From a virus: a stretch of 23,479 nucleotides of DNA. Location: IMG/VR virus record IMGVR_UViG_3300019890_000019, positions 1-23,479 of that record. One strand, written 5' to 3'. The notes under the pieces were generated by a model that was given only the letters and a program-made list of their open reading frames with translations, was not told the origin of the DNA and did no database searches. Position numbers and translations under genes: made by a program. Position 1 is the first letter of the stretch. Each line of letters opens with the position of its first letter. This document shows, in pieces, positions 4,456-23,282 of the stretch.

Positions 4456-4905
4456 ATGGCTGATATCCATCATACACTAGCAAACCATGTCGTAATTACT
4501 TCCACAGGTTGTATGGAATGGACTGGCTGGAGAACCGAAGACGGATACGGACGTATCGGGTCTGGCAACAAAAAGAAATACATGCATCGTATTTCATACG
4601 AGTTAACTTTCGGATCGATCCCTGATGGGTTATGGGTTTTGCATAGATGCGACAATCCACCATGTTTGAATCCTAATCATTTTTTTCTCGGTACCTTGAA
4701 GGATAACTTTCAAGACATGTACAGGAAAGGGCGTCAGCGAGGCCCGCAAGGTGAAAAACACAACAAATGCAAACTCACGGCAGAGCAAGTTTTAAAAATA
4801 AGAGATGACGAGCGGCCGTTAGCTGCCATAGAAGCTGAATACGGGATATCTAATGGGACCGCATCAAAGATACGTAATCGGCTTATTTGGAAGCATCTGC
4901 CTTAG
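4456..4905 (+). CDS. HNH homing-type endonuclease with C-terminal HTH
   Basis: This 149-aa protein matches the HNH_3 type of phage endonucleases. The core from H44 (HRISYE) through HRCDNPPCLNPNHFFLGT (63-80) contains the paired His/Cys/Asn residues of the beta-beta-alpha metal fold. The linker GEKHNKCKLTAEQV leads to a helix-turn-helix (EYGISNGTASKIRNR, ~128-142) for site recognition, ending in the usual WKHL. These enzymes nick or cut double-stranded DNA and spread their own gene. It lies on the plus strand inside a minus-strand late region, and its stop codon directly abuts that of the portal gene. Its DNA is more AT-rich than its neighbours. Together these points indicate a mobile insertion. 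The ribosome binding site is weak. Confidence 0.9.
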   Translation: MADIHHTLANHVVITSTGCMEWTGWRTEDGYGRIGSGNKKKYMHRISYELTFGSIPDGLWVLHRCDNPPCLNPNHFFLGTLKDNFQDMYRKGRQRGPQGEKHNKCKLTAEQVLKIRDDERPLAAIEAEYGISNGTASKIRNRLIWKHLP

Positions 4906-13243: not shown

Positions 13244-15535
13244 TTAAGGCTTATCCTCAACACTCACGCGAATTGGCTTGACATATTGGCGCACGTTATC
13301 GATCGTCTTCGGTATCCATCCGTGCGCCTTTAATATATTGCTGATGCGCAGCTTATTGGATTGATTCAAATCCTTCTTCTCAACGGCAATTGCATCAGTG
13401 AGAATTTTCACCGGGTGGACGGGGTGCCCAGCGCGTTCTCGCTGTTGGCAATACATCAACACATCCTCTGTCCAGGGGTCCTCGGAGTTGCGAGCTCGCT
13501 GCTCAGCAGAGGTATCATCAACCGGCATCTTGTAAAATGCCTCGCCATCCTTGTATGCGCGCAGCGCTTCGGCAAAGATTTGTTCGCGCTGTCCACGCAG
13601 CACCTCGAGGTCGATGCCTTTACAGCGCAAAGGCCAATAACGTCTAATCCCACGCATTTCAGGCAAATAATCGTCTGTCTCGGAGGTCGCTGCAAAAATG
13701 CACTTGCGCTTATGGTCTTGATCAAATCGACCATATTTCATCCGATATCGGTCGGTTCGTTTCGTAATAGTTGAAATCACATCGCCGTGATCTCGGCGAC
13801 TGAACCCGGCCATATCTGGGATCTCGATTAGCCATTTACCCTGAACGCTTTGAATAAATTCATTACTGCCAAATGCCGTGCTAACTGCGGCAAACCACCG
13901 ATCGCCCAATATCTCCAAAGCCGAGGATTTGCCCTCGCCTTGTGTTCCCTCGAGCACCGGCATGTGGTCGGCTTGAACGCCTGGAACATAGGCCCGTGCA
14001 ATCATGGATATAATCCAATTGCGCCCAACAGCCATGCTGTATGGTGTTAACACAACACCTAAACAGTCACCGACCCAAGTCGATAGTCGTTCGTGGCTAT
14101 CCCACTCCAGACTTTCTAGCCATTCTTGTACAGAGTTGCGCTCATTCTCGTGCGCGGCGTGGCCAATGGCGTCCTCCAATAGCTTTAGCGAGAACTTGGG
14201 GAGTTGTAATTCTTGCTGAATAAATGTGGTCAGCCGTTTGGTGTCGACATCATTCCATTCGCGCGGAGTGGGGCCATAAACGGTGTGAAAAATGCGTTCT
14301 CTAAAATCGTCCCACCAGATTTTCTCTTTATATTTAGGGTGAAATCTAATGATCATGCTGGCGTTGGAAAGCGTCGGATGCGGCACATCCTTGTTGTCTA
14401 CCGCTAGCCGCAAATCCTTCCATATGACTAGATTCGATCGCGGCGGCTGCCCGTCAGGGTAATCCTCATCGCGCTTACGATTTTTGGCCGGCAGGAACTC
14501 AGCATCAATCGGCGCGGCATCATCGGGAGTCGCCGGCTCCGCCGTTGCAGCCCCTGAACCCTCAGTCATGGCAACAACCGAAGGCTCAGACGCCTCCTGA
14601 ACTGCAGCGGCTGGAGTCGGCTCCTTGGATGCTACCGTAGTGACGATGTGATCACCCGCCCATTTGGCAATTTGCTTGGCGTCCATGCCTTCGGACACCG
14701 CATCGGCGATATCCCAGCCTGGCGGCTGCTGCCCGTTGGGCTGTACCACTCGCACGCGCGACGCTATGTTGGCTAGGACACCGGCGAGCTGCGCCCCCGC
14801 CCGGCTCCCTGGATCGTCCGCATCAGGCCAAATGATGACATCGCGGCCCTCGAGGCACGTCCAATCTGTATGCTTGACCGCGCTAGAACCACCCGCCCAG
14901 GTCATGCAGACGTATTTTTTTAAGGTGTGCGCTGCAATATCGGCGCATTTCTCACCCTCGACAATCAACACTGGCGCTTGCGGATGCTTTGGCAGCAGCT
15001 CGGCGTGATACGCGGGCTTGGGCGCCGGATAGGCGTGGCCATCCCATTTGCCGTTGCGCCAAGTCCATTGTGCGAAAGTCTTACCGTTGGCTAAGTCGTA
15101 GCGAGTGACCGCGAAGGCCCGTCCGTAGCGATAGCAGGCGCTCGCTACGCCGTTGGTAGGATGCGGTGCAGGATCGGGCGCATCCTCCGGGATCGGCTCA
15201 GGGCGCCTCTCAGGGGCTTTGGTGCGGGGTAATTTTGGCGCTTGCCGACCCTCAGTGACGCCGACTAGGGCTGCGACCTGCTTGAGCGCGGCACCGTTGT
15301 TGATATGGTTCAATGCAGCGTAGAGCGCGATAAGGTCCCCGCCGCGTTCCGAACCTGCTCCATGCATCCATGCGCCAGTGTTCAGGTTTACGGTCCAGGA
15401 ATCGCCTATACCGCCGTTAGCCTTGCGCTCCCCCAGCCATTCATGCCCGCGGCGCTGGCCGCCCATCCACTCAGGTAATAGAATCAACGCGGACGCTAAG
15501 GCCGCAGCTCCGACATCCTCGAAAGACAGGGCCAT
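13244..15535 (-). CDS. Primase-helicase: TOPRIM plus VirE-type ATPase
   Basis: This 763-aa protein joins three parts. Residues ~1-95 resemble a CHC2-like primase N-terminus without the cysteines, ending in GGDLIALYAAL. A TOPRIM domain has the catalytic Glu in VLIVEGEK (189-196) and the Asp pair in DVIIWPDADD (232-241). After an Ala/Pro linker (~300-345), a VirE/DUF-type P-loop ATPase carries Walker A EGTQGEGKSS (529-538), an acidic strand WLIEIPDM (~568-575) and a sensor/arginine region (AATSETDDYLPEMRGIRRYW, 616-635). Such proteins prime and unwind DNA at phage origins. ATG 15535 is 6 nt after the RHH gene stop, so it is coupled. The iteron region begins 55 nt past its stop. It is probably the replication initiator. 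Confidence 0.88.
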   Translation of the reverse strand: MALSFEDVGAAALASALILLPEWMGGQRRGHEWLGERKANGGIGDSWTVNLNTGAWMHGAGSERGGDLIALYAALNHINNGAALKQVAALVGVTEGRQAPKLPRTKAPERRPEPIPEDAPDPAPHPTNGVASACYRYGRAFAVTRYDLANGKTFAQWTWRNGKWDGHAYPAPKPAYHAELLPKHPQAPVLIVEGEKCADIAAHTLKKYVCMTWAGGSSAVKHTDWTCLEGRDVIIWPDADDPGSRAGAQLAGVLANIASRVRVVQPNGQQPPGWDIADAVSEGMDAKQIAKWAGDHIVTTVASKEPTPAAAVQEASEPSVVAMTEGSGAATAEPATPDDAAPIDAEFLPAKNRKRDEDYPDGQPPRSNLVIWKDLRLAVDNKDVPHPTLSNASMIIRFHPKYKEKIWWDDFRERIFHTVYGPTPREWNDVDTKRLTTFIQQELQLPKFSLKLLEDAIGHAAHENERNSVQEWLESLEWDSHERLSTWVGDCLGVVLTPYSMAVGRNWIISMIARAYVPGVQADHMPVLEGTQGEGKSSALEILGDRWFAAVSTAFGSNEFIQSVQGKWLIEIPDMAGFSRRDHGDVISTITKRTDRYRMKYGRFDQDHKRKCIFAATSETDDYLPEMRGIRRYWPLRCKGIDLEVLRGQREQIFAEALRAYKDGEAFYKMPVDDTSAEQRARNSEDPWTEDVLMYCQQRERAGHPVHPVKILTDAIAVEKKDLNQSNKLRISNILKAHGWIPKTIDNVRQYVKPIRVSVEDKP

Positions 15536-15805: not shown

Positions 15806-16159
15806 TTATGTCGCGCGCCCTGAAATAATTACGCGAGCCTCGTCGACCGATCGTGCAACCCCCGCGCGTCCGCCCGCCATGCGTACAGTTTTTATAAACG
15901 CCGCCTGCTCTTCGCTGAGTCTGCCATTCTTAGATTTCGCCTCGATCGCGGTAAATATTCCACCGCTCGACCATCCGGCGATATCCGAGAATCCCGCAAC
16001 GGCTAATTTTACTGGTCTAGGGTAAGAGAGAACTAAGCGCGTCGGTGACTGCTCAATGATTTTCCCTTGCCAGGCGAGTCCGGAATTTAGTCGGAACAGC
16101 CTACAGTCTCCATGACTGAATTCGCCGATGATCGCGGAATAGAGTTCGGATTCGCTCAC
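15806..16159 (-). CDS. VRR-NUC domain nuclease
   Basis: The 117 residues form a stand-alone VRR-NUC (PD-(D/E)XK) domain. It has FRLNSGLAWQG near residue 22, the metal-binding Asp in GFSDIAGW (D59), E-x-K in IEAKS (E73, K75), Gln in LSEEQAAF (Q85), and the typical AGGRAGVARSVDEA (95-108). Family members cut branched or single-stranded/double-stranded junctions, as in FAN1, and stand-alone phage forms often sit next to SNF2-like helicases. Here the helicase-methyltransferase gene is one gene upstream. GTG 16159 overlaps the HTH stop as GTGA. It is probably a Holliday-junction or flap-processing enzyme in replication. Confidence 0.88.
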   Translation of the reverse strand: MSESELYSAIIGEFSHGDCRLFRLNSGLAWQGKIIEQSPTRLVLSYPRPVKLAVAGFSDIAGWSSGGIFTAIEAKSKNGRLSEEQAAFIKTVRMAGGRAGVARSVDEARVIISGRAT

Positions 16160-16296
16160 GCTTGCGCCACGATTCGCGAAATGGTCGGCTGCGATACTCC
16201 TAAAAATCTAGCGAGTTCTTTCTGCGTTGCGAGCCTTCGCCGATATACGTGCCAGACGAATTGCCTCAATCGTGCGTCAAGACATTTATGCGACAT
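16156..16296 (-). CDS. 46-aa helix-turn-helix protein
   Basis: ATG 16296 lies inside the end of the helicase-methyltransferase gene (11-nt overlap) and the TGA at 16156 overlaps the VRR-NUC GTG. The product MSHKCLDARLRQFVWHVYRR then RLATQKELARFLGVSQPTIS ends RIVAQA. KELARFLGVSQPTISRIV is a textbook HTH: helix 2, the Gly-Val turn, then the recognition helix SQPTISRIV. It could be a repressor of this operon or a DNA-targeting subunit for its neighbours. It is small for a repressor and has no dimer domain visible. Both overlaps support translation by coupling. Confidence 0.68.
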   Translation of the reverse strand: MSHKCLDARLRQFVWHVYRRRLATQKELARFLGVSQPTISRIVAQA

Positions 16297-18478
16297 CGAA
16301 TAGATCGCCCATTGATCGCTTCGCTTGCCGTAAATTCTCGACTGCCGTCTCCCAGTATGATCGCTTCAATTCGCATCCTATGAACTTCCGTCCATTCTGA
16401 AGAGCGACGTAGCCTTCAGAGCCAATGCCGGCGAATGGACTTAAGATCGTATCACCTGGATTGCTCCATAGCTCAATGCCGCGTTGGATCACTTGCATCT
16501 GTAAGGGGCAAATGTGGCGCTCGTCTTCGTGTTCTCTAGCGCTACGAAACTGCAAAGTGTCCGACGGATTGATATCCATCCAAACAGGGCTGGCGTAGTT
16601 TTGCCAAACTCCCACCGGAAATGACTCTTCGGTATGTGTCACGCGTTCCGTATTTTCTCCTGGCTTGCGCATCGTTACCAAATAATCCGGGATGCCCTGA
16701 CGCGACATGGCGGAATCTTTTTTGAGTTGTTTATATAACAGTCCGAGCGCTTTCGTGCGTTGCATCGCCGTCACCGGATCTTTCCAAATGCAGACCTCAC
16801 TATGGAATATCCAGCCTTCTTGCTCGAATAGCCGAATCAAATCGCCGCGAAAATCTCGAATGCCGATATAACCGTGATGCGTTTTGCTGGTCGGCAAGTT
16901 CATGCAATGAAAACTCACTAGACGACCAGGCATCGTCACGCGATACAGATCCTTCACCAAATAACCGAAGTGATTCAAAAACTCCTCTTGATACTTGCAA
17001 TTCCCCATGTCGCGATCACTGGCGCTATACGTATACAAACTCGCGAACGGAGGCGAAAATATCGTGTAATGAATGGAATCAGTCGGTATCTCTTTGACAA
17101 TATCTACGCAATCACCTAAATGCATCTGCCATCCATCGCTGGATATAATATTTGTCTCATATTCGTTCATGTTTCGCGTAGTCCCTGTGATGTTGGCGCG
17201 CATTTGTTCGCGCATGTGGTCAACGATTTGTGCGGCCATCTCGCCGGCTGCGGCGTCTTTGTCTTTGATGTTTTTTAAAACTGCGCCTTCTGTATCCGCA
17301 ATGATGACATGCGCATTGACTTCGCGTAGTTGACCAAATCTATAACAGCGGCGAATCGCTTGATAGAACTGCTCCCAACTATCCGAGAGTCCGACAAATG
17401 CCATATGTGCGCAGAACTGTAGATTTAGACCAAATCCTGACATCGAGCTTTTTGTAACGAGCACTCGTTTTTTACCGTCCAGAAATGCCATAAGAGCAGA
17501 TTCTTTTTCCTCGACAGACTGATTTCCACGAATCTCTATAGCGTCAGGAATCGCTTTGCGCAGCGCATCTGATTCGCCATTGAGATTGCACCAAACTACC
17601 CACGGCTGATCGCTGGAGTTTACAAGCGCCGCGCATTGCGCGACGCGTTCCGTGATCGACTCGCGCCGTGCCGCGATACGCTCCTGCAGGGTCGCGGCTT
17701 CTAGCGCGAACAAATAGCCGTCCGTAGGCTTATCAACGCGGATTACATGTTCATGTAGGGATAGTTTTGGCAGCACGAACGCGCCATCTTCATAACCCAA
17801 ATCAGATGGCTTGCGAATCATCACCGACCACGAAGCCAGCCATTTCCAAAAGTCGCGCTGTGCATGACCTTTGAGCCGCCAAGATTGCGTTTCGCCGCCG
17901 TCGTGGACAAAGAACATCGACAGCATCTCGACGCGCGACATACTCCCAACGAATTGCGCGTGGTTGCCGAGTTCCATGTAATCATTTGGCGCTGGCGTCG
18001 CCGTGCATGCTAGTCGATATGGCGTCTGCGAGAATGCTTCGATTATCGCTGTGCGCGTTGCGCCATCGTAGGATTTCAAAATAGAAGATTCGTCTAATAC
18101 AATGCCAGTGAAGTAACTCGGATCGAAGTGCGACAGCATCTCGTAATTGGTGATCGTTATCCCAGTTTCAACCGTCGACTGATTGCGGCAATAACGTACA
18201 GGGATGCCGAACTTATCGCCTTCGTGGACTGTCTGCGATGCAACGGCCAGCGGCGCGAGGATTAGTACGTTGCCTGGAATGTGTTTGGCCCATTCCAATT
18301 GCATCGGCGTCTTGCCCATGCCGCAATCAGCGAAGATCGCCGCTCGCCCGCGCTTCAGTGCCCATCGCACGATATCTGCTTGGAATGGGAACAAATGCGC
18401 AGACAGTTCTGGAATGTCAGTCAGGCCGCATAGTGGCGAGGTGATGGCTTTATCAGCCAGAAAACTGTCGTAATTCAT
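16286..18478 (-). CDS. SF2 helicase fused to beta-class DNA methyltransferase
   Basis: 730 aa from ATG 18478, chosen because it overlaps the previous stop as ATGA (GTG 18502 is an in-frame alternative). Residues 1-~430 are an SNF2/SF2 helicase: Walker A CGMGKT (52-57), DESS (129-132), TATPAPN (159-165), and motif VI QAIRRCYRFGQ (373-383). Residues ~445-730 are a methyltransferase with catalytic motif IV SPPF (475-478) before the AdoMet motif FAGIGSEG (682-689), the beta order, which fits N4-cytosine or N6-adenine methylation. A GWQMHLGDCVDIV segment precedes motif IV. No nuclease domain is visible. It may modify phage DNA while translocating, or act in replication with the downstream HTH and VRR-NUC proteins. 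The target is unknown. Confidence 0.88.
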   Translation of the reverse strand: MNYDSFLADKAITSPLCGLTDIPELSAHLFPFQADIVRWALKRGRAAIFADCGMGKTPMQLEWAKHIPGNVLILAPLAVASQTVHEGDKFGIPVRYCRNQSTVETGITITNYEMLSHFDPSYFTGIVLDESSILKSYDGATRTAIIEAFSQTPYRLACTATPAPNDYMELGNHAQFVGSMSRVEMLSMFFVHDGGETQSWRLKGHAQRDFWKWLASWSVMIRKPSDLGYEDGAFVLPKLSLHEHVIRVDKPTDGYLFALEAATLQERIAARRESITERVAQCAALVNSSDQPWVVWCNLNGESDALRKAIPDAIEIRGNQSVEEKESALMAFLDGKKRVLVTKSSMSGFGLNLQFCAHMAFVGLSDSWEQFYQAIRRCYRFGQLREVNAHVIIADTEGAVLKNIKDKDAAAGEMAAQIVDHMREQMRANITGTTRNMNEYETNIISSDGWQMHLGDCVDIVKEIPTDSIHYTIFSPPFASLYTYSASDRDMGNCKYQEEFLNHFGYLVKDLYRVTMPGRLVSFHCMNLPTSKTHHGYIGIRDFRGDLIRLFEQEGWIFHSEVCIWKDPVTAMQRTKALGLLYKQLKKDSAMSRQGIPDYLVTMRKPGENTERVTHTEESFPVGVWQNYASPVWMDINPSDTLQFRSAREHEDERHICPLQMQVIQRGIELWSNPGDTILSPFAGIGSEGYVALQNGRKFIGCELKRSYWETAVENLRQAKRSMGDLFDVA

Positions 18479-18699
18479 ACCTGAGCCACCCCTCTCGGAC
18501 ACGGCGGACAGTCATGGCCTAATGCTGTGCCGTGGCTACATGCACCATTACTTGGAATATGGATATCGTGCGCGGCAATAATGGTGCATTTTTGGCAGAG
18601 TGGTTGCGGCTCGGCATGTTTCCATCCCATGTTGCAGCAGCAACCGCCCATATTGACGATGACGCGATGTTGCGCGGCGATTAGCTCAGCGTCGGTCAT
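18475..18699 (-). CDS. Cys/His-rich small zinc-binding-type protein (74 aa)
   Basis: The start is ATG 18699, overlapping the previous stop as ATGA; the longer version to 18906 is a shadow. The product MTDAELIAAQHRVIVNMGGC is followed by cysteines and histidines: CCCNMGWKH, PLCQKC, CSHGTALGH and CPPC. The spacing suggests one or two zinc sites, such as CxxC....CxxC with a His. Its stop overlaps the helicase-methyltransferase start. Function unknown. It could bind nucleic acid or its neighbours. Small Cys-rich proteins are common in phage replication operons. Confidence 0.65.
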   Translation of the reverse strand: MTDAELIAAQHRVIVNMGGCCCNMGWKHAEPQPLCQKCTIIAAHDIHIPSNGACSHGTALGHDCPPCPRGVAQV

Positions 18700-19007
18700 G
18701 ATGTGACGAACTCCCGCGTTGTGTAGCCGCACTCGCGACAAGTAATTCCTGGTGAATGCGCCTTGGCGTATTTGCAGCCGCGCATTCCGTGATCGTGAGA
18801 ATTGTAGGAATCGTATGTGAATAATGGCGAGAACTTCGCCGAAATGCGCCGTTCTGTCTCCATCTTCAATACCTGCTCTGGCGATCGCAGTCGTACGTGG
18901 TAGCACATATCGCGCCAGTGCTGAGCGCGGCCATGCTCGCTCGTTGCGTTCACGAACTGATCATAGGCAGCGTCTATTAGGGATTCGCGGTCGGAGTCGG
19001 TCATCAT
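18696..19007 (-). CDS. Unknown small protein with C-terminal Cys/His motif (103 aa)
   Basis: ATG 19007 overlaps the helicase stop (ATGA) and has AGAGGA 7 nt upstream, so the in-frame extension to 19040 is unnecessary. The N-terminal half is helical and acidic (RESLIDAAYDQFVNA). The centre is basic. The C-terminus has HDHGMRGCKYAKAH and GITCRECGYTTRE, with a CxxC and a preceding Cys and His residues that could chelate zinc. I recognise no family. It is translationally linked to both neighbours. Confidence 0.65.
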   Translation of the reverse strand: MMTDSDRESLIDAAYDQFVNATSEHGRAQHWRDMCYHVRLRSPEQVLKMETERRISAKFSPLFTYDSYNSHDHGMRGCKYAKAHSPGITCRECGYTTREFVTS

Positions 19008-20401
19008 GCTTGCTTCCTCTTTGCTAATCGTCCATTCCATACATGCTGTGCCCAGCCTGATTTGTAGCCTTTGATTCGTTCGATATCTCGTAATTGCTGC
19101 AGTGTTGACTGTCCTTGCGCTTGTCGCTCCCGCTTCTTCGCAATCTGCTCAGGCGTAAATTCCACCAGCTCGCCGTCTTTTTCTTCGATCTCTTGTCTAG
19201 GCTTTACCTCGAATATATGGCCACATTCTACGCACGTTGCGGCGCGCGCTGGCGATGCTGCGAAGCATTTAGGGCAGACGCGGATACCGGGAGGGGGTTT
19301 TTTCTTGCGCTTATCGGCGTCGCCTTCAAGGGTCCATTCTCGAGGATCGCTTGGCAATCCAAACTTCATCGTAGAGTTCACGTGATCCATAATCAGCGCA
19401 TGGCTTTTTCCTGGCGCCGGTCGCAATATTCTCCCTATCTGTTGGCGCCATAATCCTTCGCTCGCCGTCGGGCGCAATAGAATTCCCGCGTGTACATTTT
19501 CGATATCTAGGCCCTCGCTGAACAAATCGCACGAAGCCATGACTTTTATCTTATTATCCCTAAAATCCTTGACCGCCATGCGCCGTAATTCTTTATCAGT
19601 GCCGCCATCAAGTGCAAGCGCAGAAATGTCGGCTTTGCGAAACTGTTCAGCAACATTATGGGCATGGGCTACCGACGTACAGAAGACAAGCGCCTGCAGT
19701 CCATCGGCAAGTTTTCGATAGTGCGAAAGCGCATCTCCCGTAATGGATGGCGTATTCATCAAAGCTTCGGATTCTTCGTGCTTAAAGTCGCCGGCACGTA
19801 TATGTAGGCCAGATGTATCGGCAGTAGGCGGCGCGAATATGCGAGCTGGCGCGAGATATCCCATTGCCGTCAACTCTGAAATGGTAGGGCCGACAATGAG
19901 TTTGTCGAAGTGTGAAGCGAGGCCGTGGCCGTCCAAACGTATCGGCGTCGCCGTAAATCCGCATATTTTAGCGGTCGGGTACGCTCTAATGATTTTCGAC
20001 CACTGCGAACCAACGCTGACATGATGGCACTCATCGATCACAATCAACGTGGGGGCCGCATAATCGCCAAGGCGGCGCACTAATGTTTGCACACTGGCCA
20101 CTGCCACATGGTGATTGCTCGCGCGCCATCGACCAGCGCTGCGGTTATAGCCTGCTGCGATGATATCTGGCGTCACGTCGAACTGACGCAAACGCTCCAC
20201 GATCTGATCCACTAGTTCGACACGATGGCAGAGAATAAGCACTCGCTTGCCGCGTTTCTCGGATGATTCTGCAATAGCCGCGAAGACCGTTGTTTTTCCT
20301 GAACCTGTGGGACTGACGTATAACGGCGCTTTGAATCCGCTAGCGAACGCTTCACGGATTTGCGCGATACCGGTGGATTGATATTGGCGTAACGTAATCA
20401 C
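19004..20401 (-). CDS. SF2 DEAD/DEAH-type helicase with C-terminal zinc ribbon
   Basis: The 465-aa protein has Walker A TGSGKT (32-37), DECH (123-126), TATP (150-153), and motif VI QQIGRILRP (320-328), with a LRQYQ Q-motif at the start. It resembles type III restriction R-subunit-like and UvsW-like helicases of phages. A zinc ribbon (C376, C379, C390, C393) and a basic coiled tail follow. It unwinds branched DNA in replication or recombination. Start GTG 20401 has a weak ribosome binding site. It heads a six-gene run joined by overlaps, divergent from the plus-strand operon. Confidence 0.9.
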   Translation of the reverse strand: MITLRQYQSTGIAQIREAFASGFKAPLYVSPTGSGKTTVFAAIAESSEKRGKRVLILCHRVELVDQIVERLRQFDVTPDIIAAGYNRSAGRWRASNHHVAVASVQTLVRRLGDYAAPTLIVIDECHHVSVGSQWSKIIRAYPTAKICGFTATPIRLDGHGLASHFDKLIVGPTISELTAMGYLAPARIFAPPTADTSGLHIRAGDFKHEESEALMNTPSITGDALSHYRKLADGLQALVFCTSVAHAHNVAEQFRKADISALALDGGTDKELRRMAVKDFRDNKIKVMASCDLFSEGLDIENVHAGILLRPTASEGLWRQQIGRILRPAPGKSHALIMDHVNSTMKFGLPSDPREWTLEGDADKRKKKPPPGIRVCPKCFAASPARAATCVECGHIFEVKPRQEIEEKDGELVEFTPEQIAKKRERQAQGQSTLQQLRDIERIKGYKSGWAQHVWNGRLAKRKQA

Positions 20402-20489: not shown

Positions 20490-20984
20490 ATGAATGCAGA
20501 AGTAGAATCAATCAGCGATCCCATCGAACTTGACTTGGCTGAAAAGGCCATCGCGCTTGCCAAGATACGACAACGATGGAGTGCTATCAAAGATTTCTAT
20601 AGACCCATCGTCAATGCTTTTCATCGTCTCGGTCTCGAGCCGACTTTGAGCACCGATGTTGATCTGTCGTTCTCTGGCGATGCGGCAAAACTTGCTGCCG
20701 TCGTTCGCATTCTTCGCACCAGCGGATTCACGACTTCATCTGAACGTCCGAAGGCTGGTGAGACTACATGGTATGCAAGATACGTGCATCCTGAGTGTCC
20801 GACGAACGTATGGCTGTATTTCACGTCCTCGGTATGCAAGCGAGTGAAAATCGGCACGAAAATGGTTGAGCAGGATGTATACGAGACTCAGTGCGACGAT
20901 ATATCTACCAGTGTGCAGACAGTGGAATCCGTCAGATACGATGGCATTGATACCGCAACGCCTGAACTTGAGATGCCATTTTGA
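20490..20984 (+). CDS. Unknown first protein of the plus-strand operon (164 aa)
   Basis: ATG 20490 follows TAGGAG at 6 nt and stands directly behind the strong promoter. The N-terminal ~60 residues are helical. The middle has LSTDVDLSFSGDAAKLAAVV, then ETTWYARYVHPECPTNVWLY and VCKRVKIGTKMVEQ, a mixed alpha/beta fold with several aromatics. It ends in an acidic peptide (TATPELEMPF). A short acidic tail ending in Phe, and the position at the head of a recombination operon, recall single-stranded DNA-binding proteins, but I see no OB-fold signature and do not assign that. Its stop overlaps the exonuclease start. Confidence 0.7.
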   Translation: MNAEVESISDPIELDLAEKAIALAKIRQRWSAIKDFYRPIVNAFHRLGLEPTLSTDVDLSFSGDAAKLAAVVRILRTSGFTTSSERPKAGETTWYARYVHPECPTNVWLYFTSSVCKRVKIGTKMVEQDVYETQCDDISTSVQTVESVRYDGIDTATPELEMPF

Positions 20985-21838
20985 ACGCCCATCTGCTCCC
21001 CTTAACCGCCGCGCAGTACCATGCGGACCCGGCCATACGTCCGAGCCTGTCCAATTCGATCGCTAAAATTTTGATCGATCAATCGCCGGCCCATGCGTGG
21101 TTGGCGCATCCGCGCTTGAATCCTAATTATCAGCCTGAGAGCGATAGCAAGTTCGATCTAGGCTCTGCCGCGCATGTCATGCTGCTCGAGCGGCGCGATG
21201 ATTGTATCGTGCGCGTACAGGCCGATGACTGGCGCACGAAGGCGGCGCGCGAGGCTCGTGACGCGGCACAGGCCAATGGTCAATATGCGGTGCTGGAGCG
21301 TCAATACGCCGATATTGAGATGATGGTCAAGGCGGCGCGCGACTTCATAGACGATACGGAATTGAAGGGCATCTTTGAGACTGGCGAAGCGGAGCAGACT
21401 TTGCTCTGGCAGGAGGGCAACGCGCATTGCCGCATTAGACCTGATCTGTTGTCCGCCGACCGCCGTATCATATTGGACTACAAGACCACGCCGTCCGCAC
21501 ATCCGGAAGCGTTCATCATGCAGATCGGCCGCATGGCCTATGACCTGCAGGCTGAGTTCTACACGCGCGGGGTAGCGTACTTAACTGACGTTGAACCGCA
21601 GTTCGTTTTTCTGTGCCAAGAGTCAAAGCCGCCGTATGCGTGCTCACTGGTAGCATTATCAGGCGCGTACCGAGAGGTAGGAAAGGCAAAGGTCAATCAG
21701 GCCATTAAATTGTGGTCCGAGTGTATGACCACGAACGCCTGGTATGGATACTCGAACAAAATTCACTGGGGAGAGCCAAAACCATGGGATTTGGTCAAAG
21801 CAGAGGCCGCGATGGCGGCGGTGGAGGAAGAGGCGTGA
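20981..21838 (+). CDS. PD-(D/E)XK exonuclease, RecE/YqaJ-like
   Basis: The 285-aa protein has GSAAHVMLLE (61-70), then RIRPDLL with D155, ILDYKTT with D166 and K168, and a DLQAEFY motif (188-194), matching the metal-dependent core of RecE C-terminal/DUF3799-type nucleases. These degrade one strand of dsDNA from ends to leave 3' tails for annealing. The start is TTG 20981, overlapping the previous TGA; a GAG lies 8 nt upstream. The ATPase downstream and this enzyme probably form a recombination pair, with an HNH gene between them. Confidence 0.86.
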   Translation: MNAHLLPLTAAQYHADPAIRPSLSNSIAKILIDQSPAHAWLAHPRLNPNYQPESDSKFDLGSAAHVMLLERRDDCIVRVQADDWRTKAAREARDAAQANGQYAVLERQYADIEMMVKAARDFIDDTELKGIFETGEAEQTLLWQEGNAHCRIRPDLLSADRRIILDYKTTPSAHPEAFIMQIGRMAYDLQAEFYTRGVAYLTDVEPQFVFLCQESKPPYACSLVALSGAYREVGKAKVNQAIKLWSECMTTNAWYGYSNKIHWGEPKPWDLVKAEAAMAAVEEEA

Positions 21839-22341
21839 AACTTTGCAGCGTTGAAGGCTGTGAAGAAATCGCCATCTGCAAAGGATGGTGCGACGGACAT
21901 TATTCTAGATGGAAGAAATCCGGTAACGTTAACGCGTCCGTTCCATTGCGACAACATCGCGAAAAAGGAACCGGTACTATCCATGATGGATATCTGAGGC
22001 TCAGTATCGATGGCAAGTTAGTTCGTGAACACGTCATGTTGGCAGAAAAGGCTCTCGGTAAGGCACTTCCACCAGGAGCACAAGTTCACCACGTCGATGA
22101 GAACAAGCAAAACAATTCTCCAGGAAATCTTGTTCTTTGTCCCGATGACGCATATCACAAATTGTTGCACTTAAGGCAACGTGCCATTGATGAATGTGGA
22201 AACGCAGAGTTTCGCAAATGTCAATTTTGCGGAAGATGGAGCGATCCGTCGACCATGAAATACAATAGCCGAATGTTTCATCACGCCGAATGCCGCAGGG
22301 CAGATAATGCGAGACGAAGCGCGGCAAGGAAGGAATCGTAA
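21835..22341 (+). CDS. HNH endonuclease with N-terminal zinc finger
   Basis: The start is GTG 21835, overlapping the exonuclease TGA, with GGAGG 7-8 nt upstream; the in-frame extension to 21712 lies in the exonuclease gene. The N-terminus CSVEGCEEIAICKGWCDGHY is a small zinc finger (C4, C9, C15, C19, H22) common in phage HNH proteins. The core VHHVDENKQNNSPGNLVLC (84-102) holds the H-N-H residues, and a C-terminal CQFC plus HHAEC forms a second zinc site. It is a free-standing homing-type nuclease, inserted between recombination genes but keeping their overlaps. Its DNA is somewhat AT-richer than the exonuclease gene. Confidence 0.88.
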   Translation: MKLCSVEGCEEIAICKGWCDGHYSRWKKSGNVNASVPLRQHREKGTGTIHDGYLRLSIDGKLVREHVMLAEKALGKALPPGAQVHHVDENKQNNSPGNLVLCPDDAYHKLLHLRQRAIDECGNAEFRKCQFCGRWSDPSTMKYNSRMFHHAECRRADNARRSAARKES

Positions 22342-23282
22342 TGAGTTTCGTTATAAAAAAAGCTATTCGTGAACAAACTGGATTGATCATAGGTCTGGCT
22401 GGAGGAACGGGATCTGGAAAGACTTTTTCTGCGATGCGCCTTGCTTCCGGCATTGCCGGCGATCGACCTTTTGTTGTTTTAGATACCGAAGCAGGTCGAA
22501 GTCGACACTATGCCGATCAATTTAATTTTGATATTGGCGATCTTTCTCCACCGTTCTCTCCAGATTCTTATTCCGAAGCGATTAAGGCAGCCGATATCGC
22601 TGGATATCCAGTCATAGTCGTAGACTCCATGAGCCATGAGTGGAGCGGTGAAGGGGGAGTGCTGGAAATGCACGACGCCGAAGTGGATAGAATGGCTGGA
22701 ACCGACTGGAAGAAACGCGAAGCTGTGAACATCGCTGGTTGGATCAAACCAAAAATGCAGCACAAAAAAATGGTACAGAGATTACTTCAAGTACGTGCTC
22801 ACTTGATTCTTTGCTTCCGTGCCGAAGAGAAAATAGAAATGGTGCGTGAAGAAGGAAAGATGAAAATCGTTCCGAAGGTATCCATGACCGGTATAAACGG
22901 CTGGATGCCAGTGTGCGAAAAGAATCTTCCATTCGAACTGACCGCATCATTTCTGTTGACCGCCGATGCGCCTGGCATGCCGAAGCCAATCAAGCTGCAG
23001 GAGCAGCACAAGGTTATGTTTCCGCTCGATAAGCCAGTGGACGAAGATTCAGGCCGCAAGGTCGCCGCATGGGCATCGGGCGGCGCGGTCGCGACGACGA
23101 TCACTCCCGCCGACTTCGACGCAATGACTCGCACCATGGACGTTAAAACGATGCCCGAACTAGAGCGCGCGTTCGGTACGGCGTACACTCGCGCAAAGCG
23201 GCTTAAGGATGATGCGACGATGAAGCGGCTTAAGGCTTATTACGATGCGACGAAAGAGTCGCTAAACGAAGTGACGATTTAA
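22341..23282 (+). CDS. RecA-fold AAA ATPase, Sak4-like
   Basis: ATG 22341 shares a base with the HNH stop; AAGGA lies 8-9 nt upstream. Walker A is GGTGSGKT (21-28) and Walker B VIVVDSMSHEW (91-101), followed by VRAHLILCFRAEEKIEM and PKVSMTGINGWM. This matches PF13479-type phage ATPases related to the single-strand-annealing Sak4 group. The C-terminal ~80 residues are a helical extension absent from the smallest members. The neighbouring RecE-like exonuclease supports a recombination role. It may act with an annealing protein not in the window. Confidence 0.8.
   Translation: MSFVIKKAIREQTGLIIGLAGGTGSGKTFSAMRLASGIAGDRPFVVLDTEAGRSRHYADQFNFDIGDLSPPFSPDSYSEAIKAADIAGYPVIVVDSMSHEWSGEGGVLEMHDAEVDRMAGTDWKKREAVNIAGWIKPKMQHKKMVQRLLQVRAHLILCFRAEEKIEMVREEGKMKIVPKVSMTGINGWMPVCEKNLPFELTASFLLTADAPGMPKPIKLQEQHKVMFPLDKPVDEDSGRKVAAWASGGAVATTITPADFDAMTRTMDVKTMPELERAFGTAYTRAKRLKDDATMKRLKAYYDATKESLNEVTI

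Follow-up and report, generated by a model that had tools for sequence, protein, structure and literature searches.

What does a virus do with a DNA motor and a DNA methylase joined in one chain, and do the small genes that overlap it belong to the same machine? The question is raised by a viral stretch of 23,479 nucleotides (IMG/VR record IMGVR_UViG_3300019890_000019; below, the window), in which the genes for the fusion, a helix-turn-helix (HTH) protein and a VRR-NUC nuclease follow one another. An earlier note on this DNA regarded the fusion as unusual and the genes together as resembling a compact machine. Features of the window are listed in Table 1.

Table 1. Features of the window discussed in the text
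Feature	Position	Strand	Remarks
149-aa ORF	4456-4905	+	Homing-endonuclease match, 4.4e-6; opposite strand, just beyond portal gene
VapE-type replication protein	13244-15535	-	N-terminal Toprim-like region; Pfam and PHROG scans
VRR-NUC nuclease, 117 aa	15806-16159	-	PF08774, 4e-10, 40.2 bits (cut-off 23.8)
HTH protein, 46 aa	16156-16296	-	HTH_3, 24.0 bits (cut-off 23)
Fusion protein, 730 aa	16286-18478	-	ORF 16286-18502, ATG at 18478
SWI2/SNF2 motor	residues ~1-400 of fusion
Helical linker	residues ~401-448 of fusion
Beta-order amino-methyltransferase	residues ~449-722 of fusion
114-aa ORF between fusion and RadD-like helicase	18696-19040	-	No family match
Second SF2 helicase, RadD/ResIII-like	19004-20401	-	RadD profile, 1.2e-43; 0.5 kb upstream of fusion
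Exonuclease VIII-like, HNH and Sak4-like genes	20981-23282	+	Divergent from fusion operon

The fusion protein

The 730-aa chain had been described as an SF2 helicase and a beta-class methyltransferase, and Pfam, PHROG and Foldseek agree. Pfam gives Helicase_C (9e-8) and weak SNF2-rel_dom/ResIII matches, then N6_N4_Mtase (3.6e-16); PHROG gives PHROG_16, DNA helicase (1.8e-69), and PHROG_67, DNA methyltransferase (8.8e-39). The AlphaFold2 model, computed with 40 aligned relatives as input, has a mean pLDDT of 78. Its first part matches the SWI2/SNF2 motors Mot1, CSB, ISW1 and RapA in Foldseek (E ~1e-13 to 1e-16) and its second part the TTHA0409 methylase, 2zif (E 4e-15, target TM 0.79). Within the fusion no match to a nuclease domain was found, in agreement with the earlier note.

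In 46 relatives (31-88% identity) the motifs of either enzyme vary little or not at all. They include Walker A (G53/G55/K56), DE at 129-130 and SNF2 motif VI (Q373/R377/R380/Q383) in the motor, and SPPF (475-478) and F682-x-G684 in the methylase. SPPF comes early and FAGIG late, the order of the beta group. The methylated base would be N4-cytosine or N6-adenine, as SPPF alone fits either. A frameshift or sequencing artefact was rejected: all of the 80 best IMG/VR relatives (58-88% identity), drawn from 429 stretches with relatives, have a single continuous frame.

Distribution of the family

A tblastn search with the fusion matches 609-615 phage records, and in 305 GenBank records the match covers 80% or more of the protein. 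In IMG/VR, relatives are encoded in the 429 stretches, found via only six peptide patterns, and among genome contigs 519 of 590 candidate stretches are relatives. The 80 genome-contig relatives that were kept span many bacterial phyla as well as two archaeal bins, and are likely prophages or viral contigs. The name 'DNA helicase/methylase' is already given to such proteins in the Arthrobacter phages Faja (gp78) and Anekin and in Mycobacterium phage Sparky. These counts and names indicate a widespread phage family, so the fusion, annotated in many phages, is not the oddity it had been taken for. It is a further member of the known helicase/methylase family (PHROG_16 + PHROG_67; Faja gp78, Synechococcus phage S-CBS3 gp40), with the same domain order and motifs and alignment over the full length, although the immediate neighbours of those members differ from the window's. 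A NAR study is reportedly a likely earlier report of SNF2-methylase coupling. Such coupling in phages has been described, in one chain or as a gene neighbourhood, and a type-III-like translocating methylase mechanism has been proposed for the related DarB dyad (PMC5512222). No functional study of the fusion's activity was found in the papers searched.

Fused and split forms

Motor and methylase are separate genes in 17 of 111 dereplicated relatives. The two parts occur together, fused or adjacent, in phages of cyanobacteria, actinobacteria, Bacteroidota and Proteobacteria and in a methanogen virus. The state changed 10 times on a FastTree tree, and at least 8 of these changes are forced by well-supported branches. 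Split genes in many cases overlap or lie a few bases apart; in Gordonia phage Holliday (gp68-69), EBPR podovirus 1 (gp52/gp50) and S-LBS1 (A50-A49) the parts are homologous to those of the fusion and the genes overlapping or adjacent, but they make two chains. That the two parts have joined and separated repeatedly is strong evidence, at the genome level, for motor and methylase acting as a unit. The earlier proposal that the fusion and its neighbours form a unit thus stands for this pair, fused or adjacent, and fails for the HTH and VRR-NUC genes. One relative, L103, was not counted as split, its only interruption being an in-frame TAG inside the motor. This codon (1490-1492, between RFGQ and RPVN) lies in an otherwise open frame on a Spartobacteria-binned contig, and may reflect recoding of TAG, a mutation or an error.

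Most split motors carry a tail that the fused forms lack. A hydrophobic-P-x-[W/F] sequence ends 17 of 20 split motors and is found in none of 150 fused linkers, four regular-expression matches having been set aside because inspection showed them to be the methylase start (TGPGW-like). The tail tracks the split state in 6-7 of 8 independent pairs and never the opposite (sign test p ~0.016-0.03), a lead and not a test, since the motif was picked after viewing the sequences. It is missing from three SNF2 helicases without this methylase, from Streptococcus, Staphylococcus and Escherichia phages. The tail could dock the split motor to the methylase. Both it and the interchange of fused and split forms may be new.

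Gene order varies among the split forms. In Alteromonas phage XX1924 (L089, 3971-7346) the gene order is methylase, an intervening gene, motor; the motor still has a P-x-F tail, and upstream there are a VRR-NUC gene and another SF2 helicase. A GIY-YIG-like ORF (L174, 4597-5195) and an annotated endonuclease (L092, 5365-5993) separate motor and methylase in two other relatives, and are possibly intergenic homing endonucleases.

The HTH and VRR-NUC genes

The chain of overlaps reported earlier is real: the HTH start codon sits 11 nt within the 3' end of the fusion gene, and the GTG start of the VRR-NUC gene overlaps the HTH stop by 4 nt (GTGA), although the VRR-NUC gene itself falls just outside the interval first drawn for the chain. 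GFSDI and IEAK in the nuclease are apparent PD-(D/E)xK residues. Its phage relatives are annotated as Holliday junction resolvase or VRR-NUC, and a comparison with solved structures gave no sequence match.

The overlaps are not conserved. When 178 relatives were searched with a profile, an HTH homologue turned up only in L002, an 88%-identical contig, and at 82% identity the HTH is already gone, the overlapping frame in L003 encoding a different protein. L002 itself, the closest relative, has no VRR-NUC gene in the following ~1 kb. Among the 67 dereplicated neighbourhoods that extend 3 kb or more to each side, a VRR-NUC gene lies within 3 kb of the fusion in 8, window included, in variable order and strand; this is a lower bound, as the profile missed a weaker match in L003. 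Over whole records, VRR-NUC exceeds the Pfam cut-off in 15 of 50 relatives. It lies within 3.5 kb of the fusion in 15 of the 16 records with any match (downstream, upstream or on the other strand), several of which belong to one clade and are not independent cases. VRR-NUC thus tends to occupy the same region when present, yet is no obligate partner.

These results bear on the reading that the three genes are a restriction or exclusion system, in which the fusion would modify phage DNA and an HTH-guided VRR-NUC would cut unmodified DNA. The genes are contiguous and overlapping in the window, a motor, a methylase and a nuclease resemble type III restriction part by part, and VRR-NUC is usually close by where a relative has it. 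However, neither the HTH nor VRR-NUC is a conserved partner, and we reject the three-gene exclusion machine for that reason. The HTH frame, on whose conservation the earlier note had staked the idea, is shared with one relative in 178, and many phages have the motor-methylase pair without a nearby VRR-NUC gene. In other phages VRR-NUC accompanies an SNF2 motor where there is no methylase; the resolvase annotation of the VRR-NUC relatives also speaks against a restriction role, and no whole PADLOC system was matched among the window proteins scanned. We regard this reading as very improbable. The VRR-NUC protein is probably a separate structure-specific, resolvase-like nuclease (Holliday-junction type) encoded in the same replication/recombination region. 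The 46-aa HTH is best read as a regulator specific to its lineage.

Genomic context

The RadD-like helicase, VapE, exonuclease VIII-like and Sak4-like proteins of the window support a replication/recombination region. The RadD-like helicase, which the earlier note did not list and which probably has a C-terminal zinc ribbon, is a recurrent neighbour and is found beside the fusion in one clade (L056, L064-L081). Across phages, the neighbours of relatives include SSB, RecA-like, YqaJ, single-strand annealing, RadD-like helicase, VapE, RusA and sliding clamp proteins. The immediate neighbours are very mixed: C5 methylases, SSB, RusA, NinG, sliding clamp, ParB-like and HTH proteins, among others.

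That VRR-NUC genes near SNF2 helicases are known from phages, as the earlier note stated, is illustrated by Staphylococcus phage phiSa2wa_st1, which carries virE, VRR_NUC and an SNF2 helicase. The kinds of neighbours are as in the window, but unlike the window there is no methylase, which makes VapE, VRR-NUC and an SNF2 motor together an ordinary phage set. In Escherichia phage Golestan (L181, 1555-3901) the genes for an SNF2 helicase and a C5-type methylase overlap, and a Holliday junction resolvase is encoded nearby. The pairing is similar to the fusion's and the methylase unrelated.

Comparison with known systems

The archetype of a phage protein with both activities is DarB of phage P1, in which a SWI2/SNF2 motor and a DNA methylase are joined and packaged in the virion (PMC5512222). 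The fusion could on this ground be a DarB-like anti-restriction protein, packaged and injected with the DNA, but this is improbable. DarB and related polyvalent proteins have the reverse domain order (LPD36, then an EcoKI/TaqI-like methylase N-terminal to the helicase) and exceed 2000 aa. The fusion has its motor first, its methylase is of the beta-order SPPF class, it is 730 aa long, and its gene lies among replication genes, not in the structural block. We reject the assignment on these differences of order, class, size and context.

With type III restriction-modification (Mod and Res) the fusion has in common a beta-order methylase and an SF2 motor, and VRR-NUC adds a further likeness as a member of the PD-(D/E)xK superfamily. 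The motor is SNF2-like, however, and its nuclease partner is not conserved; neither SF2 motor of the window has the C-terminal nuclease domain of a type III Res. For DISARM, a DrmD match covers only ~70 residues (4e-7), and no other Drm protein was found among the 15 window proteins scanned, the record being a fragment. HMA (helicase-methylase-ATPase; PMC11705971) has an m5C methylase, whereas that of the fusion is N6_N4_Mtase and not C5. For the window proteins scanned, PADLOC returned only partial matches, to methylases and generic helicases, and a defence system was rejected.

The presumed target-recognition region

Residues 567-650, between motif VIII and motif X, are the presumed target-recognition region, an assignment made from motif order because much of the region has low pLDDT. 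No other part of the protein is as conserved. Mean pairwise identity is 0.79 in the window's clade (0.70 over the 46 proteins), compared with 0.57-0.65 for the motor and 0.66-0.67 for the catalytic parts in that clade. A second type, with a long insert, occurs in Mycobacterium, Arthrobacter, Pseudomonas and FCOV-F46 members (the Actinobacteria/Pseudomonas/FCOV-F46 branch). If residues 567-650 are the recognition domain, their conservation, which may be a new observation, suggests that family members share one methylation target and are not tailored to the host. An invariant specificity fits evasion of varied host restriction poorly, so the benefit may be a different one, such as replication, packaging or repair marking. 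A conserved specificity makes host-matched evasion less likely.

Proposed function

We think it rather probable that the fusion acts as a phage DNA methylase of the early region, powered by a motor tracking double-stranded DNA, with a target shared across the family, and that it protects or marks phage DNA. The SNF2-type domain would track the duplex, driven by ATP, and carry the tethered beta-order amino-methyltransferase along the replicating phage genome; the methylase would modify one target common to the family, at N4 of cytosine or N6 of adenine, and the phage would gain protection or marking of its DNA. We infer the activity of both parts, translocation, base and target, and biological benefit; translocation is assumed from homology to SNF2 proteins.

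A role in replication or recombination competes with this reading and is appreciably less probable. Here the motor would remodel replication intermediates or strip host proteins, and methylation would serve as a mark for telling the strands of phage DNA apart or for packaging, rather than as a means of evading restriction. The replication-type neighbours favour it, as do a recognition region that varies less than the catalytic core and the methylase-less SNF2 helicase in the same kind of context in the Staphylococcus phage. Against it, restriction evasion is the role usually given to phage methylases.

Our preferred reading of a motor-driven methylase with a shared target predicts that unrelated phages with the same conserved recognition region share one methylated motif. 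More speculatively, and we hold this as doubtful, the pair might place one host-independent mark in phages of very different hosts, held together either by fusion or by a docking tail. If so, fusion would make the tail unnecessary, and the mark would serve replication or packaging in a conserved way, not host-matched restriction evasion.
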